Source: Gluconacetobacter diazotrophicus PA1 5 (GTDB taxonomy: Bacteria; Pseudomonadota; Alphaproteobacteria; Acetobacterales; Acetobacteraceae). Taken from it: a stretch of 64,000 bases of DNA. Below, piece by piece: positions 29,310 through 38,050 of this stretch. The notes below the pieces were generated by a model. That model searched no databases, was not told where the DNA came from, and saw nothing but the letters and a program-made list of their open reading frames with translations. Position 1 is the stretch's first letter. Each line of letters starts with the position of its first letter. The stretch is taken from the NCBI RefSeq assembly GCF_000021325.1, contig NC_011365.1, positions 2,260,001 to 2,324,000 of the forward strand, written 5' to 3'. Made by a program: the position numbers and the translations under genes.

Positions 29310-30320
29310 TTACTCCACCGGCAACACCGACGCCGGGTCCCGGCTGGCCCGCACCAGATCCGGCGACCCCGCCACCAGTTCGCCATGGAAACCGCGCCGC
29401 AGCATGCCGGTCCAGCCGTTCATCCAGTCATTGGCTTCGCGGACGAAGCGCTCGGCGGCCGGGCTCTGCGGCAGCGTCTGCTTCAGCCACTGCTCGGGCG
29501 GGGCGGGCAGGTTCATCGTGCCCTTGCGCGCGGGGCTGAGCAGGATGGTCACGTTCTCGATATTCGCGCCGCGATCGGCCGAGGCCTCGGCGTAATTCCA
29601 GGTCGCGACCAGCATGACATAGGGAATCGGGAAGCCCATGACATGCAGCCGGTTGAACGCGGTCAGGATATCCACACTGTCGCTCAGCGGCTGGCCGGCG
29701 ATCTGGACGTGGCTGGTGAACCAGCATTCCATGACCTTGGGGTCGGTCGTGATCAGCTTCGACAGATAGTTCCGGTCGTCATGGCAGCCATTGTTCATGG
29801 CATCGACGGTCGAAAGCGGCAGGGATTGCGTGCTGCCGCGCGCGATCACCACCCCCGTCACCATCCCGTCTTCCGCGCGCACCAGCACGTTGCTCTGCAA
29901 TTCGCCATGCGGGCCGCTCGTGGTCGTCAGGACCGGATGCCATACGCCCGCCGGCAGCGGCAGTACGCGGCCGGCGAACGGGATCGCACCCGTCAGGTCG
30001 GACGTGATCGGGGGGGCCGCGACCTGCGTGCCGCCCGGCGGCTGGGCCGCGCCCTGGGCCGCCCCTTGGGGCGGCCCGCCGTCGGCCTGCTGCGCGGGGG
30101 GCGCCCCCGCGTCGGGGGCGGCACCGTTGTCGGCCTGGGCGGCGGGGGCATCGCGTCCCAGCGTCCGGTTGATCCGGTCGATGACCGGATGCAGCGCCGG
30201 AATCGCCCGCATCAGATAGGGCGGGGGATACAGCAGGGCCAGCACCACGAAGATCGGGATACCGAAGACGCAGCTCCGCCACAGCGGCGCGCGATTCCAG
30301 AGGCGGGAGGCAGCGGACAT
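29310..30320 (-). CDS. Uncharacterised single-pass envelope protein of AAA+ operon
   Basis: I do not recognise this 336-residue protein. One membrane segment (about residues 17-35, CVFGIPIFVVLALLYPP) is followed by a Pro/Ala/Gly/Gln-rich linker (about 55-105) and a folded domain (about 110-336). The domain has few cysteines (one in NNGCHDDR, one in MECWF), segments such as LPLPAGVWHPVLTTTSGPHG and VDILTAFNRLHVMGF, and reads as an extracytoplasmic domain. It is the last gene of a three-gene operon, 32 bases after the AAA+ gene, so it may be a periplasmic partner. The Cys pair might form a disulfide. Confidence 0.72.
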   Translation of the reverse strand: MSAASRLWNRAPLWRSCVFGIPIFVVLALLYPPPYLMRAIPALHPVIDRINRTLGRDAPAAQADNGAAPDAGAPPAQQADGGPPQGAAQGAAQPPGGTQVAAPPITSDLTGAIPFAGRVLPLPAGVWHPVLTTTSGPHGELQSNVLVRAEDGMVTGVVIARGSTQSLPLSTVDAMNNGCHDDRNYLSKLITTDPKVMECWFTSHVQIAGQPLSDSVDILTAFNRLHVMGFPIPYVMLVATWNYAEASADRGANIENVTILLSPARKGTMNLPAPPEQWLKQTLPQSPAAERFVREANDWMNGWTGMLRRGFHGELVAGSPDLVRASRDPASVLPVE

Positions 30321-30352
30321 TCAGACGGACCGTGACGAAGGGATGGAGCGGA

Positions 30353-31621
30353 TCAGCGCAGCACGCGTGCCCGCTGCGCGTCGGCGTCGTTCGCGATTTC
30401 CGCGGTGACGCCGTTCTCGCCCGATACGACGCGGACCAGCTTGGCCCCCTGCTGCCGCGCGGAAATCAGCGAATCGCTCATCATGTCCTCGATCGAACGG
30501 ACCAGGTCGCGGGCGCTGGCCGAGGCCCCCATGCGATCCTGCCGCCGCATGACCTCGAACAGCAGCGACGCATCGATGCCGCCGGTTTCCACCCTCAACC
30601 CGTAACTCTCGATCATCGCCTCGATTTCCAGCGCGGCGACGCGGGCGACATCCAGCCCGGTCAGCGCACGGAAGACGAAGATCCGGTCCAGCCGGTTCAG
30701 CACCTCGGGCGCGAATCCGGCCTGGCGCAGGGCCTCGACCGATTCGGCGCGCATGCGGTCGGGTTCGTCGGCCAGGCGGTCGGCGATTTCCGACAGGGCA
30801 TCGGTCGCGATGTTGGACGTCAGGACGAAGATCGCGCGGACGGTCGAAACCTGCTGGCCGGTCGAGGCCTCGGTGACATGCCCGTCGTTCCACGCGGTCA
30901 GGAACTTCTTGAAGACGTCGGGATGCGCTTTCTCGATCTCGTCCAGCAGCACGACGGCGTCGGGCTTTTCCTTCAGCCCGCCGGTCAGCTTGCCGAACGT
31001 GTCGGACCCGACATAGCCCTTGGGCGATCCGAACAACTGGGTCGCGGCGTGGGGCGAGCTCATCTGCGTCATGTCGAAATGCAGCAGCGGCCGGTCCAGT
31101 TGCCGGGCCATCTGCTTGGCCAGATAGGTCTTGCCGGTGCCCGGCGGCCCGGCCAGCAGGAAGATGCCCACCGGCTTGCCGCGCACCTGCAGCGCCATGC
31201 GGCGGCGCAACTGGGCGGCGATATCCTCGCACACCTGATCCTGCCCGATCACCCGGGCCCGCAGGCTCGCCGCCAGTTCCTCGGCGTCGATGACCGTTTC
31301 CTTCTGCTCGCGCGCCATCATTTCTTCCAGCGCGGTGCGGTTGGTCAGCCTGGCCAGTACATCCATCATCCACCCCCGTCGGCGTCGCAGCCCCTTGCGC
31401 GCCAGCCGTTCGGCGCGGGTCTCGAACATCAGACCCGCCAGGACCAGCAGGCTGCTCCCGGCCGTCAGCACGGGAAAGGCCGGCGCACACCATTCCATGA
31501 AATGTGTCAGACTGGCGAGAGAAAGATGCAGCGACGCCGCCGCCTGCAAGCTCGCCAGGATCAGGAAAATGACCATCATCACCGGCATCAGCCGGTTCAG
31601 GGCGGGCAGAAGAGCCTTCAT
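30353..31621 (-). CDS. Membrane-anchored ClpB/ClpA-type AAA+ ATPase
   Basis: This 422-residue protein has two N-terminal membrane segments (about residues 13-31 and 48-65), a short basic linker, then a single AAA+ module like the second ATPase domain of ClpA/ClpB. It shows Walker A GPPGTGKT (158-165), Walker B AVVLLDE (222-228), sensor 1 Asn270 in LTSN, arginine-finger region PEVLNRLDR (306-313) and sensor 2 SARDLVRSIED (Arg371). An aromatic pore loop is visible as GYVG (202-205). There is no N-domain, no first ATPase domain and no ClpP-docking IGF/IGL loop. A membrane-tethered unfoldase or remodeller is inferred. It overlaps the preceding gene by ATGA. Confidence 0.85.
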   Translation of the reverse strand: MKALLPALNRLMPVMMVIFLILASLQAAASLHLSLASLTHFMEWCAPAFPVLTAGSSLLVLAGLMFETRAERLARKGLRRRRGWMMDVLARLTNRTALEEMMAREQKETVIDAEELAASLRARVIGQDQVCEDIAAQLRRRMALQVRGKPVGIFLLAGPPGTGKTYLAKQMARQLDRPLLHFDMTQMSSPHAATQLFGSPKGYVGSDTFGKLTGGLKEKPDAVVLLDEIEKAHPDVFKKFLTAWNDGHVTEASTGQQVSTVRAIFVLTSNIATDALSEIADRLADEPDRMRAESVEALRQAGFAPEVLNRLDRIFVFRALTGLDVARVAALEIEAMIESYGLRVETGGIDASLLFEVMRRQDRMGASASARDLVRSIEDMMSDSLISARQQGAKLVRVVSGENGVTAEIANDADAQRARVLR

Positions 31622-32217
31622 TGGACGATCACATCCAGAACAAGCATCTCGTCCCGATGGATAATGGGCAGCGGCGTCGGCCCCAGGACGGTGATGGCCC
31701 CGGGCGCCAGCCCGGCGACGCCGGGATCGGAGACGGGGACGATATCGACTTCGCCGGAAATGCGGATGGGCAGCAGGACGGTGCGCGGCTGCGCGGTCAG
31801 CGGCACGGTCTGCGTGATGCCGCCCGAGCTGAGGGTGACGACCCCGCCGGTCCCGCCCTGGTCGTAGATCGGCATGCGCACCAGCCGGTATTCGCGCTTG
31901 CGGATGCCGGCCAGGATGCGCGCCTGCTGGTCGGGCGTCAGCCCCGACTGCTGCAGCGCGCGCGGCGCATTGTCGGGCGAGATCATGGCGAATTGCTGCG
32001 TGCTGTTCAGCACATGGGCGCTTCCGGCGGCGCCTGCCGCGCCATCGGCGCTGATCGCGGGGGCGGGGGCCGGCTGGGCCTGTTCATGGGCCATGCGGGC
32101 GCTGAAGCCGGCAATGACGATCACGCCGGCCGCCAGTCCGTACCACAGCGGCCGGGCCTTGCCGGGGCCGGCTTCGTCGGGGGTTGCGCGGGGCTCGGGA
32201 TCGGGCGTCGGCCTCAT
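31618..32217 (-). CDS. Uncharacterised single-pass envelope protein, first gene of AAA+ operon
   Basis: I do not recognise this 199-residue protein. A short charged cytoplasmic tail is followed by one membrane segment (about residues 23-40, PLWYGLAAGVIVIAGF), a low-complexity Ala/Pro stretch, then a domain of about 120 residues rich in beta-type sequence (VVTLSSGGITQTVPL, RTVLLPIRISGEVDIVPVSD, IIHRDEMLVLDVIVQ). The orientation suggests a periplasmic beta domain. ATG 32217 was chosen; the TTG at 32253 would add 12 residues. Its stop overlaps the AAA+ start, so the two are made together. Confidence 0.7.
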   Translation of the reverse strand: MRPTPDPEPRATPDEAGPGKARPLWYGLAAGVIVIAGFSARMAHEQAQPAPAPAISADGAAGAAGSAHVLNSTQQFAMISPDNAPRALQQSGLTPDQQARILAGIRKREYRLVRMPIYDQGGTGGVVTLSSGGITQTVPLTAQPRTVLLPIRISGEVDIVPVSDPGVAGLAPGAITVLGPTPLPIIHRDEMLVLDVIVQ

Positions 32218-32399: not shown

Positions 32400-32429
32400 G
32401 GTGGCCTGACCGGCCGCCTTTTTTGTTTT
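32400..32429 (+). terminator. Intrinsic terminator abutting rimP start codon (candidate attenuator)
   Basis: GGTGGCC (32400-32406) pairs with GGCCGCC (32412-32418; one G-U pair) around TGACC, followed by six Ts, a G and four Ts. The T-tract runs into the TTG start of rimP at 32428. It lies downstream of the candidate rimP promoter, so it may control read-through into the nusA operon rather than end an upstream gene; the nearest upstream gene points the other way. Confidence 0.7.
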
Positions 32430-33051
32430 GGACGCAGACCTTCCCTACCTGACCGGCCTGGACGCCAAGGTGGCCGCCATCGTGGCGCCCGTCCTGGCCG
32501 ACATGGGATTCGAACTGGTCCGGGTGGCGATCCTGGGCCGGGAAAGCCCGACCGTGCAGATCATGGCCGACCGTGCCGACGGCACGCTGATCGCGATCGA
32601 GGATTGCGAGCAGATCAGCCACGCGGTGGGCGCGGTGCTGGATGTCGAGGACCCGCTGCCCGGCGCCTGGACGCTCGAGGTCTCGTCGGCGGGAATCGAC
32701 CGTCCCCTGACGCGGGCGAAGGACTGGACGCGCTTCGCGGGCCACCTGGCGAAGGCCGAGGTGAATATCCCGATCGACGGCCGCAAGCGGTTTTCCGGCA
32801 TCCTGCTGGGGGCCGAGGACGGGTTCGGGCGCCTGCGCCTGGAAGACGGGACCGAGGTGGCGCTGCCGCTGTCGGACATGCGCCGCGCGCGGCTGGTCCT
32901 GACCGATGAATTGATCGCGGCCAGTGCCCATATGATGCGCGCGCCCGGTGGGGCCCCGGAAGAGGGCGAGGAAGATACTACGGAAGCGGCCCCCGAAGGG
33001 GCCGGAAAATCCCCGAAGCCCGGCCGGCGGCCGGCGCGCAAGACTCACTGA
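32428..33051 (+). CDS. rimP: Ribosome maturation factor RimP
   Basis: This 207-residue 30S maturation factor has the N-terminal domain ([19 protein letters not shown], then [20 protein letters not shown] and [12 protein letters not shown]) and a C-terminal SH3-like domain ([20 protein letters not shown]). The last about 35 residues are a charged extension. The TTG start at 32428 has no ribosome site because the terminator T-run precedes it; GTG 32470 would cut into the first conserved helix, so TTG is preferred but uncertain. First gene of rimP-nusA-ylxR-infB-rbfA. Confidence 0.94.
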
Positions 33052-33069
33052 GACGTCCTGGAGGCTCTG

Positions 33070-34641
33070 ATGGATACGTCCGTTTCCCGTCCCGAACTGC
33101 TGCTGGTGGCCGATGCCGTCGCGCGTGAGAAGGCGATCGACCGGGAGGAGGTTCTGGAGGCGATGGAACAGGCCATCCAGAAGGCCGGCCGCGCCAAGTA
33201 CGGGCACGAAAAGGATATCCGCGCGACCATCGACCGCAAGACCGGCGACGTCCGCCTGTCCCGCTGGACCGAGGCCGTCGAGGAGGTGGAGAACGAGGAA
33301 ACCCAGATCCCGCTCCACATCGCCCGCAAGTTCAAGCCCGAGATCCAGCTGGGCGAACATCTGGTCGATCCGCTGCCGCCGATCGATTTCGGCCGCATCG
33401 CGGCGCAGACCGCCAAGCAGGTGATCGTCCAGCGCGTGCGCGAATACGAGCGCAAGCGCCAGTATGACGAATTCAAGGACCGCGTGGGCGAGATCGTGAA
33501 CGGCACGGTCAAGCGCACCGAATACGGAAACCTGATGGTCGAGATCGGCAGTTCCGAGGCGCTGCTGCGCCGGGACGAGCTGATCCCCCGCGAAAGCTTC
33601 CGCAATTCGGACCGCGTGCGCGCCTATATCTATGATGTGCGTGACGAGCCGCGCGGGCCGCAGATCTTCCTGTCGCGCACCCATCCCGCCTTCCTGGCGA
33701 AGCTGTTCGCTCAGGAAGTGCCGGAAATCTACGACGGCATCATCGAAATCAAGGCCGTCGCCCGCGACCCGGGATCGCGCGCCAAGATGGCGGTGATTTC
33801 CCGCGACGCGTCGATCGACCCGGTGGGCGCCTGCGTGGGCATGCGCGGATCGCGCGTCCAGGCGGTGGTGCAGGAACTGCAGGGCGAGAAGATCGACATC
33901 ATTCCCTGGAGCCCGCAGGCCGCGACCTTCGTGGTCAACGCGCTGGCGCCGGCGGAAGTGACCAAGGTCGTGATGGACGAGGAAGCTGGCCGGGTCGAGG
34001 TCGTGGTGCCTGACGAGCAGCTCAGCCTGGCGATCGGCCGGCGCGGGCAGAATGTCCGCCTGGCCAGCCAGCTCACCCGCTGGGACATCGACATCCTGAC
34101 CGAGGCCGAGGAATCGGAACGCCGGCAGGAAGAATTCCGCCGTCGCAGCGGCCTGTTCGTCGAGGCGCTGGACGTGGACGACGTCATCGCCGGCCTGCTG
34201 GTGACCGAAGGCTTCCATTCGATCGAGGAACTGGCCTATGCCGACCCCGACGAACTGGCCGAGATCGAGGGCTTCGACGAGGACGTGGCCGGCGAACTGG
34301 TCCGCCGGGCCGAGGGCTTCCTGGCCCGGCGCGAGGACGAGCTGGACGAGAAGCGGCGCGGCCTCGGGGTGTCGGACGATGTCGCGGCGCTGGGCGTGTT
34401 CTCGAACCAGATGCTGGTGACGCTGGGCGAGAAGGGTGTGAAGTCGCTGGACGACCTGGCCGACCTGGCGGGCGACGAACTGGTCGAGATCCTGGGCGGC
34501 GAGGTCATCGACGAGGAAGCGGCGAACGAGATCATCATGGCCGCCCGCGCGCACTGGTTCGAAGGCGAGGAAGCCGCCGGGGAAGCCGCCCGAGAAGCTT
34601 CTGGGGAGACGGCCGAAGGCCGGGAGGCGTCGGACGTCTGA
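33070..34641 (+). CDS. nusA: Transcription termination/antitermination factor NusA
   Basis: This 523-residue RNA polymerase-binding factor has the NusA N-terminal domain (about residues 1-130), the S1 domain (about 135-200, GEIVNGTVKRTEYGNLMVEIG), KH1 and KH2 (about 230-345, including DPVGACVGMRGSRVQAVVQE and LAIGRRGQNVRLASQL), and C-terminal helix-hairpin-helix repeats (GFHSIEELAYADPDELAEIE). It follows rimP by 18 bases with GGAGG just upstream. In E. coli NusA represses its own operon, which makes the leader terminator notable. Confidence 0.98.
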   Translation: MDTSVSRPELLLVADAVAREKAIDREEVLEAMEQAIQKAGRAKYGHEKDIRATIDRKTGDVRLSRWTEAVEEVENEETQIPLHIARKFKPEIQLGEHLVDPLPPIDFGRIAAQTAKQVIVQRVREYERKRQYDEFKDRVGEIVNGTVKRTEYGNLMVEIGSSEALLRRDELIPRESFRNSDRVRAYIYDVRDEPRGPQIFLSRTHPAFLAKLFAQEVPEIYDGIIEIKAVARDPGSRAKMAVISRDASIDPVGACVGMRGSRVQAVVQELQGEKIDIIPWSPQAATFVVNALAPAEVTKVVMDEEAGRVEVVVPDEQLSLAIGRRGQNVRLASQLTRWDIDILTEAEESERRQEEFRRRSGLFVEALDVDDVIAGLLVTEGFHSIEELAYADPDELAEIEGFDEDVAGELVRRAEGFLARREDELDEKRRGLGVSDDVAALGVFSNQMLVTLGEKGVKSLDDLADLAGDELVEILGGEVIDEEAANEIIMAARAHWFEGEEAAGEAAREASGETAEGREASDV

Positions 34642-34666
34642 TCACGAAGCCGCACCCGACCGGGCG

Positions 34667-35314
34667 ATGCGAGACATGGAAACGGATGCCGACCAGGACA
34701 GGGATGACGAACGCGGGCCGCTGCGGCGCTGCATCGTCACCCGCGACCGGGCGGCGCCCGAGACGATGCTGCGTTTCGTGCTGTCACCTGACCGGATTGT
34801 GACGCCCGATCTTTCCGCGCGTCTGCCCGGACGGGGAATCTGGTTGAGCGCGCGGCGGGATGTGCTAGAAACGGCGCGGACACGGGGGGCATTCGCACGC
34901 GCCGCCCGTGGGCAGGTCGTCGTTCCGCCCGACCTGGACAAGATCCTGGAAGCCGGACTGGTGCGCCGGATGCTGGAAACGGTGGGACTCGCACGGCGGG
35001 CCGGTCAGGTGACCTACGGCTTCGCCAAGGTGCGGGAATGGATAACGGGCGGTCGCGCCGGTCTGATCATTCAGGCCGAGGACGGCAGCCCGGACGAGAG
35101 GACGAGGTTGTTGTCCGGCGCACGGGACCTTCCGATAGCGGTTGTTCCTACGGCGGCGGGTCTGGGGGCGGCATTCGGCCGTGACCATGTCGTGCACGCG
35201 GCGATGTCGTGTGGCGAACTGGCACGTCGTGTCCGCGTCGATAATGAACGTTATGCGGGGCTGTCCGGCAGGGCGGTCCCGGGTTCGGCGGACCGATCCA
35301 CCGAACTTGGGTGA
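34667..35314 (+). CDS. YlxR RNA-binding protein with L7Ae-like C-terminal half
   Basis: This 215-residue protein combines an N-terminal YlxR (DUF448) domain (about residues 18-95: GPLRRCIVTRDRAAPETMLR, LPGRGIWLSARRDVLE) with a C-terminal domain like the ribosomal L7Ae/YlxQ type (from about residue 100: GLARRAGQVTYGFAKVREWI, then HVVHAAMS). In Bacillus the two are separate genes between nusA and infB; here they are fused, as in many alphaproteobacteria. Both are nucleic-acid-binding; the exact target is unknown. Start at ATG 34667; ATG 34676 is possible. Confidence 0.88.
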   Translation: MRDMETDADQDRDDERGPLRRCIVTRDRAAPETMLRFVLSPDRIVTPDLSARLPGRGIWLSARRDVLETARTRGAFARAARGQVVVPPDLDKILEAGLVRRMLETVGLARRAGQVTYGFAKVREWITGGRAGLIIQAEDGSPDERTRLLSGARDLPIAVVPTAAGLGAAFGRDHVVHAAMSCGELARRVRVDNERYAGLSGRAVPGSADRSTELG

Positions 35315-35326
35315 ACAGGCGGGTAC

Positions 35327-38050
35327 ATGAGCGAAGGCAACGATCAGGATCAGGGTAAGGGACGCTTGTCCTTGCGGCCGGCGGGCCGGAAGGATGTCGG
35401 ACGGACGGTTGATGCCGGTTCCGTGCGGCAGAGTTTCAGCCATGGTCGTTCGAAGGTGGTGCAGGTCGAGGTGCGCAAGAAGCGCGGCCCCGGTCCGGCC
35501 CCCGCGGGCAGCGGCTCCGGTTCGTCCGGTGGCGGGCGCGCCGGCGGGCGGGGCGGCAGTGGTGGCCGGGCGCTGACGGCGTCCGAACTGGCCACCCGCC
35601 AGCGCGTGCTGGAAGAACAGCGGGCCGAGGCCGTCCGGCGCGAGCAGGAACGGCGCGAACAGGAAAAGATCATGATCCTGTCCGCGGCCGAGGAAGCGCG
35701 CCGGCGGGACGAGGAAGCGCGCCGCGCGGCCGAGGACGAGGTCCGCGAGAAGGAAGAGGCCGCCGCCCGCGCCCGTGAGGAAGAGGCCGAGCGCCGCGCC
35801 AGCGCGCAGGCCCACGGCCAGGCGGGGACCCCGTCCCGGGCCGAGCCCGAGCCCGAAAGCAGCGGACCGGTCGTGTCGGCGGTGCCGATTCCCGGCGCGG
35901 TCACGCTGGCCCCGCCGATGGAGCGCCTGCGCCCGCTGGCCGAACGCGCCATCATGCCGGCCCGCCCGGTCACGCCCAGCCGTCCGGCGACGCCGGCCGC
36001 GACCCCGCAGGCCCCGGGCGAGACCCTGCGCCTGCGCACCGGCCGCGTTGGAGAGGCAGAGGACGATCGCCGTCCGGCGCGCCGTCCCGGCGGCGGCATC
36101 GCCCCGGGGCGCAAGCCGTCCGGCGCGTCGCCCAAGAAGGGTGGCGACAGCCGCCGTTCGGGCCGCATCGACGTGCAGGCCGCGATCGAGGGTGACGACG
36201 ACAAGACGCGTTCGCTGGCCTCGGTCCGGCGCCAGCGCGAACGCGAACGCCGCCAGGCGGAACTGGAGCGCCTGCGCGCCGACCAGGTCCGCGTGGTGCG
36301 TGACGTCATCCTGCCCGAGACGATCACGGTGCAGGAACTGGCGAACCGCATGGCCGCCCGCCAGGGCGAGGTCATCAAGGCCCTGATGAAGATGGGCGTG
36401 ATGGCGACCGTGACCCAGTCGCTGGATGCCGATACCGCCGAACTGGTGGTCCAGGAATTCGGCCACCGTGTCCGCCGCGTCGCCGACAGCGACGTCGAAA
36501 TCGGCATCGAGGGGATCGAGGACCAGCCGGAAGACCTGCTGCCGCGTCCGCCGGTCGTCACCGTCATGGGCCATGTCGACCACGGCAAGACGTCGCTGCT
36601 GGACGCGCTGCGCACGACCGACGTCGCGGCGGCCGAAGCCGGCGGCATCACGCAGCATATCGGCGCCTATCAGGTGACGTTGCCCTCCGGGTCGAAGATC
36701 ACCTTCATCGACACTCCGGGTCACGAGGCGTTCACCGCCATGCGTGCCCGCGGCGCCTCGGTGACGGACGTGGTCGTGCTGGTCGTGGCGGCGGATGACG
36801 GCGTGATGCCGCAGACGATCGAGGCGATCCGGCATGCCAAGGCCGCGAACGCCCCGATCATCGTCGCCATCAACAAGTGCGACAAGCCGGGTGCGAACCC
36901 CGAGCGCGTGCGCCAGGAACTGCTGTCGCACGAGATCGTGGTCGAATCGATGGGCGGCGACACCCAGGATGTCGAGGTCTCGGCGCTGAAGCGCACCGGG
37001 TTGGACAAGCTGGAAGAAGCGATCCTGCTGCAGGCGGAAATGCTCGACCTGCGGGCCAATCCGGACCGCGTGGCCGAGGGCTCGGTGATCGAAAGCCGTC
37101 TGGATCGCGGTCGCGGTCCGGTGGCGACCGTGCTGGTCCAGAAGGGCACGCTGCGGCGTGGCGACATCGTGGTGGCCGGCGCCGAATGGGGCCGCGTCCG
37201 TGCGATGCTGGACGATCGCGGCCGGCAGATCCAGGAAGCGGCGCCCGCCATGCCGGTGGAAATCCTCGGCATCGCCGGGGTGCCGGGTGCCGGCGAGCCG
37301 TTCGTGGTGGTGGATAACGAGAATCGCGCCCGCGAAATCTCGGAATTCCGCCAGCGCGTGATCCGCGACCGCACGGCGGCCGGCCAGACCGCCGCCCGCG
37401 GCACGCTGGACCAGATGCTGGCCCGCATCCAGGCCGGCGCGCAGAAGGAAGTCGCCGTCCTGATCAAGGCCGACGTCCAGGGTTCGGCCGAGGCGCTGCA
37501 GGCCACGGTGCTGAAGCTGGAGCATGAGGAGGTCAAGGTCCGCGTGCTGACGGCCGGCGTCGGCCAGATCACCGAAAGCGACGTGCAGCTCGCCAAGGCG
37601 TCGGATGCGGTCATCATCGCGTTCAACGTCCGCGCCACGACGCAGGCCCGCGAACTGGCCCAGCGCGAAGGCGTGGATATCCGCTACTACTCGATCATCT
37701 ATCAGGTCGCGGACGACGTCGAACAACTGGTCAAGGGCAAGGTGGCGCCGAAGCACCGCGAGAAGTTCCTCGGCTATGCCGAGATCCGCAAGGTGTTCGA
37801 CATCACCAAGGTCGGCAAGGTCGCCGGCTGCTACGTCACCGAGGGCGTGGTCAAGCGCGGCTGCGGCGTGCGCCTGCTGCGTGACAACGTCGTCGTTCAT
37901 GAAGGCGAGCTCAGCCAGCTCAAGCGCTTCAAGGACGATGTCAAGGAAGTGGCGCGCGGCTACGAGTGCGGCCTGTCCTTCGCGGGTTACAACGACCTGC
38001 GCGAAGGCGACATGGTCGAGTGCTACGAGATGGAACTGGTTCCCGCATGA
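35327..38050 (+). CDS. infB: Translation initiation factor IF-2
   Basis: This 907-residue GTPase places fMet-tRNA on the ribosome. The first about 400 residues hold a basic start, a Gly-rich patch, a long Arg/Glu/Ala coiled-coil-like stretch and the IF2 N domain repeat ([20 protein letters not shown]). The GTPase motifs are G1 [14 protein letters not shown] (about residue 415), G3 DTPGHEAF and G4 NKCDKPG, followed by domains II to IV. The ATGA at its end overlaps rbfA. It follows the YlxR gene by 12 bases. Confidence 0.98.

Follow-up and report, generated by a model that had tools for sequence, protein, structure and literature searches.

A candidate membrane-anchored AAA+ machine of acetic acid bacteria and the linked loss of one partner and its motor

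Most of what is known about membrane-anchored AAA+ unfoldases in bacteria concerns proteases such as FtsH. The locus described here raises the question of what a membrane-anchored AAA+ motor might do when it carries no protease domain and is encoded together with two envelope proteins. The locus lies in the window, that is, the whole stretch of 64,000 nucleotides that was analysed, and the host genome measures 3.9 Mb in two contigs. A first-pass annotation, made from the letters of the window, had described a membrane unfoldase with two envelope partners and could name no system that it matched. This description stands with two qualifications: the three genes are a family trait rather than a mobile cassette, and a relative of the ATPase occurs in Microvirga without the two partners.

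The locus and its three proteins

The genes, here called A, B and C, had been read as three tightly spaced minus-strand genes for products of 199, 422 and 336 aa, the first two overlapping by ATGA. Open reading frame calls and the sequence itself agree with this reading, as follows.

Gene A, 31618..32217, minus strand: envelope protein of 199 aa, an open reading frame call
Gene B, 30353..31621, minus strand: AAA+ ATPase of 422 aa, an open reading frame call, with ATGA overlap with A
Gene C, 29310..30320, minus strand: single-pass protein of 336 aa, an open reading frame call
rimP-nusA-(rnpM-like)-infB, 32428..38050, plus strand: divergent neighbour that marks the chromosomal site in most acetic acid bacteria

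The ATGA joins the stop of A to the start of B, and 32 nt separate the stop of B from the start of C. On its two sides the unit is flanked by a LysR-type regulator gene and by the divergent rimP-nusA-infB cluster, whose members (rimP, nusA, rnpM-like, infB) we name from sequence recognition. At the locus itself, an Rfam search found no RNA and a consensus scan found no sigma-70-like promoter.

Gene B encodes the two-TM-anchored, single-module AAA+ ATPase of ClpB D2 type that had been predicted. Hydropathy places its transmembrane helices at residues 11-29 and 48-66; the protein matches AAA_2 (PF07724) at 5e-37, with 128 bits against a cut-off of 27; and residues 87-404 align with residues 535-849 of the 853 of ClpB, which make up its second module and small domain. 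The small-domain part of this alignment spans residues 320-404, after which 18 residues are left. Walker A (GPPGTGKT), the pore loop (GYVG), Walker B (LLDE), the sensor-1 asparagine, the arginine finger R310 and the sensor-2 arginine R371 are all in place, and a juxtamembrane stretch, MDVLARLTNR.ALE, is conserved. The [LIV]G[FL] ClpP-docking loop is absent between sensor-1 and the arginine finger in all aligned B proteins, and no M41, Lon or ClpP-loop features were found in B. The motif check thus upholds the complete nucleotide motifs, the aromatic pore loop and the missing docking loop of the first-pass annotation, and the nucleotide motifs and pore loop are kept in the 31 loci with intact B. 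The motor core is the most conserved part of the protein, with ~90% identity between genera; in the homologue alignments, column identity is ~76% for B and ~35% for A and C. Only two further B-like proteins occur in the host genome; with frames 801 and 863 residues long, they are presumably the ordinary ClpA and ClpB, so that B does not stand in for them.

The AAA+ kind of B is itself known, and several known systems resemble B in part. The D2 modules of ClpB, ClpC and ClpE share with it the large and small subdomains, the GYVG pore loop, the arginine finger and the sensors, and those of ClpE and ClpC are its closest solved relatives; however, B lacks the first ring, the N-domain, the M-domain and the ClpP loop, and carries two N-terminal TMs instead. 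On the ClpB disaggregase model B reaches 175 bits where 1232 are required, with D2 alone aligned, as expected from the earlier claim that an N-domain and a first ATPase ring are missing. A ClpP-partner unfoldase (ClpA, ClpC, ClpE or ClpX) was rejected on the missing docking loop. FtsH and the m-/i-AAA proteases have two N-terminal TMs and a single cytosolic AAA+ ring at the inner membrane, and their likeness to B is one of layout only, as B lacks the metalloprotease domain and falls in the ClpB-D2 branch instead of among the classical AAA proteins; the FtsH profile gives 17.8 bits against a cut-off of 600, with no room for M41. Msp1/ATAD1 and Bcs1 are membrane-anchored AAA rings without a protease that extract or translocate membrane proteins. 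Their working mode is alike, whereas they are eukaryotic, belong to another AAA clade and have no operon partners. Torsin, with LAP1/LULL1, combines a single ClpB-D2-like module with single-pass membrane partners in the ER lumen; Torsins lack the pore loop and the arginine finger, whereas B has both, and B stays under the Torsin cut-off (PF06309, 23.6 bits, 5.9e-5, cut-off 27). The type VI secretion ATPase TssH/ClpV was likewise rejected (141 bits against 885), and so were the anti-phage Clp-like ATPases, where DolB (84 bits) and PDC-M37B (74 bits) fall below the 175 bits of ClpB and the locus of B is fixed and vertically inherited.

Protein A was expected to be a single-pass, beta-rich envelope protein. 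The beta-rich part agrees with the AlphaFold model, in which a compact domain at residues 68-199 has a pLDDT above 90; the TM is weak by hydropathy in the A of the window, below the 1.6 cut-off, and a hydrophobic N-terminal stretch (~24-41 here) is seen across an alignment of 20 homologues. The protein ends in a conserved strand (...VIVQ). A V-x-Q ending is common to nearly all A homologues, an unusually conserved C-terminus for a fast-evolving protein. Protein C has the predicted layout of a single-pass protein with a Pro-rich linker and a large outer domain: a TM at 13-31 by hydropathy, a disordered Pro/Ala-rich linker at ~55-95 and a folded outer domain at 99-315, with two invariant cysteines (179 and 199). 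Mean pLDDT is 83 for A and 86 for C. Neither protein matches a family in Pfam, NCBIfam or PADLOC, a Pfam search with 20 A and 25 C homologues gave no match for any of them, and a sequence-profile search of solved structures returned nothing credible. For A, the fold search returned generic beta-sandwiches alone, with Z at most 5.5. For C it returned Mog1 (Z 8.3, rmsd 4.2 over 152 residues), PsbP (6.7) and DcrB (6.1), at 4-8% identity and with Z within the range of models that have no true relative, so a Mog1/PsbP/DcrB-like fold of the modelled outer domain is suggestive only. These matches between predicted models and solved folds are too weak to give a function to A or C. The profile searches proposed for the 199- and 336-aa proteins matched neither to a conjugation or type IV secretion component, and the weak fold matches leave room for such a kinship. 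Remote, mostly secreted relatives of the C outer domain occur in large-genome members of the family with no B nearby, often as adjacent pairs and sometimes as DUF2061 fusions (L092, L094, L096, L097, L098, L099, L101, L102, L103).

Distribution of the unit

With presence set at E <= 1e-55, B is found in 130 of the 299 genomes of the order. Gene A occurs in 126, one of them a spurious weak match without B, and C in 142, remote paralogues included. A profile-detected A accompanies B in 125 of the 130 B genomes; the other five are G070, G144, G180, G215 and G238, and in G144 a divergent A adjoins B. Where B is found, the arrangement is nearly always A-B-C. In acetic acid bacteria the unit mostly adjoins rimP-nusA-infB, and in deeper lineages the order is the same, the site is different and the neighbours are unrelated. 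Because the same order recurs across loci and the genes co-occur genome-wide, the association is more than chance; and as the flanks differ each time in deeper lineages, there is no fourth partner and the conserved unit is exactly three genes. The three genes are adjacent and co-occur across the family, which the first-pass annotation had named as support for a system, and inside the family a B that lacks A or C is rare.

Outside the family, the same threshold gave no B in two partly overlapping samples, one of 385 genomes from the class and one of 398 from the phylum. We take the carrier lineages, from sequence recognition, to be acetic acid bacteria and some relatives (Acetobacteraceae). The unit is a vertically inherited trait of part of one bacterial family, not a mobile cassette, and we found no description of it in the open-access literature. 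In phage and plasmid collections there is one clear relative of B only, on plasmid pMVF16-3 of Microvirga sp. VF16 (NZ_CP069357.1, L196:14887-16125), outside the Acetobacteraceae. It has 46.5% identity, two TMs and a D2-only AAA+ module; a gene for a 125-aa soluble protein precedes it, hypothetical genes surround it, and neither A nor C is present. This type of ATPase thus predates the A-B-C unit or extends beyond it, and dependence on an adjacent A and C is not universal for it.

Linked loss of A and the motor

Motifs and partners were checked at 37 loci. In six of them (G061, G070, G116, G180, G215 and G238) the pore loop of B and its Walker B pair are gone, in many cases together with sensor-1 and the arginine finger, whereas every one of the six keeps the Walker A lysine. 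Gene A is absent in exactly these six genomes, neither beside B nor detected by a genome-wide profile match, and the gap between rimP and B has shrunk to ~300-400 bp, whereas C is kept in 6/6. Were the loci independent, such a coincidence would have a probability of 1 in 2.3 million (37 choose 6); they are, however, related. All six genomes are of 1.9-2.4 Mb. The motor-dead B genes still read as long frames that no internal stop interrupts. Their motor core has 26-52% identity, against ~90% between intact B proteins, and the parts before Walker A and at the C-terminus are mostly better kept than the core.

A species tree of NusA and InfB places three of the events within genera that hold an intact relative, with 100% support: G116 beside intact G029, G180 beside G118 and G032, and G215 with G238 beside G101. 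The losses in G061 and G070 are probably independent events, and the tree supports at least three independent co-losses of A and the motor. In G101, the sister of G215 and G238, A is split between two frames (L048:11300-11772), likely a recent loss of A, with B and C intact, which suggests that A is lost first. The pair G215-G238 is the sole one close enough for dN/dS on motor-dead B, which gives 0.057 at a dS of 0.29, with 0.07 for C; both values resemble those of normal functional genes of the same region, and motor-dead B is thus maintained by strong purifying selection in that pair.

At L114, in the one-contig genome G124, B is frameshifted in the TM region and C lies in three frames, by decay or sequencing error; the unit is intact in G046, a congener.

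A proposed machine and its alternatives

We propose that A, B and C form a three-part inner-membrane machine, in which B would thread clients, A would depend on the motor, and C with the membrane part of B would have a motor-independent role; we hold this with confidence just short of even. In this model six copies of B would assemble into an AAA+ ring beneath the inner membrane, with two TMs for each subunit and, by analogy with FtsH, with the pore entrance facing the membrane. The aromatic pore loop would thread membrane or envelope clients at the expense of ATP, and, as B has neither a protease domain nor a ClpP-docking loop, the clients would be extracted or remodelled without being degraded. 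A and C would be bitopic partners with their folded domains in the periplasm. A may act only via the motor, in client presentation or gating, such that the loss of one would free the other to decay. A second, structural role, kept after the motor is lost, may belong to C and to those parts of B that make up its membrane anchor and small domain. We infer the hexamer, the topology, the interaction of the three proteins, the direction of threading and the clients. A dedication to PQQ alcohol dehydrogenase was considered and rejected, since that enzyme family is missing from several genomes in which the unit is intact; it is therefore not a required client.

The co-loss is seen in six genomes (three to five events), all of them reduced, and part of the pattern could therefore reflect the general erosion of a system that the cells can do without. 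At the extreme, motor-dead B would be a decaying relic of reduced genomes and its association with the loss of A mechanistically uninformative. The small size of all six genomes and the frameshifts in both B and C of G124 would agree with this; however, the six frames remain long and free of internal stops, their Walker A lysine is invariant, B and C of G215-G238 have low dN/dS, and A has been deleted cleanly where B and C have not, and we regard pure decay as unlikely. Envelope-stress signalling, in which A and C act as periplasmic sensors that set B to unfold or release a cytosolic regulator rather than a membrane client, would account for bitopic partners with periplasmic domains above a cytosolic motor, and fast divergence of A and C beside a conserved B is expected if they face changing surroundings. 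The domain of RseB/MucB, which are periplasmic stress sensors, also matches the C fold weakly (Z 5.5), but it is tied with unrelated folds, and the neighbours of the unit include no recurrent regulator or sigma factor; this too seems an improbable explanation.

Two further readings find less room. That B serves ClpP, or some other soluble protease, by handing over membrane proteins is suggested by its closest solved relatives, the D2 modules in ClpE and ClpC, but the docking tripeptide is missing in all aligned B proteins and no protease gene is linked to the unit, which makes this very unlikely. An ATPase and two envelope proteins in one operon resemble minimal secretion layouts, and B could then feed unfolded proteins outward through A and C. 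Against such an export motor, the deeper lineages, where the site differs, show no recurrent neighbour of a secretion kind (outer-membrane, pilin, effector or other), no secretion component matches A or C by profile, B has two TMs only and no predicted channel, and an FtsH-like arrangement would be expected to pull towards the cytosol; we give it very little credence indeed.

Returning to the three-part machine, we tentatively describe the unit as a previously undescribed protein dislocase of acetic acid bacteria, with three parts at the inner membrane, in which periplasmic A and the motor would work as one unit and which would repeatedly have become a motor-dead, still-selected B-C scaffold; this fuller description falls somewhat short of an even chance. 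What would be new here is that a machine of the membrane-anchored AAA+ kind rests on a ClpB-D2 ring and has two envelope partners of its own, and the pattern of loss hints at how A, B and C depend on each other. If true, it would be a second, non-degrading design beside the membrane-anchored proteases, with a ClpB-D2 ring at the inner membrane and two dedicated periplasmic partners. The carriers matter to industry and ecology, and genetic tools exist for them. Since A and the motor have been lost together more than once, with a dead motor under selection, the division of labour between force generation and scaffolding is directly testable, and, if the model is true, evolution would have supplied in these bacteria a set of separation-of-function mutants of such a machine.
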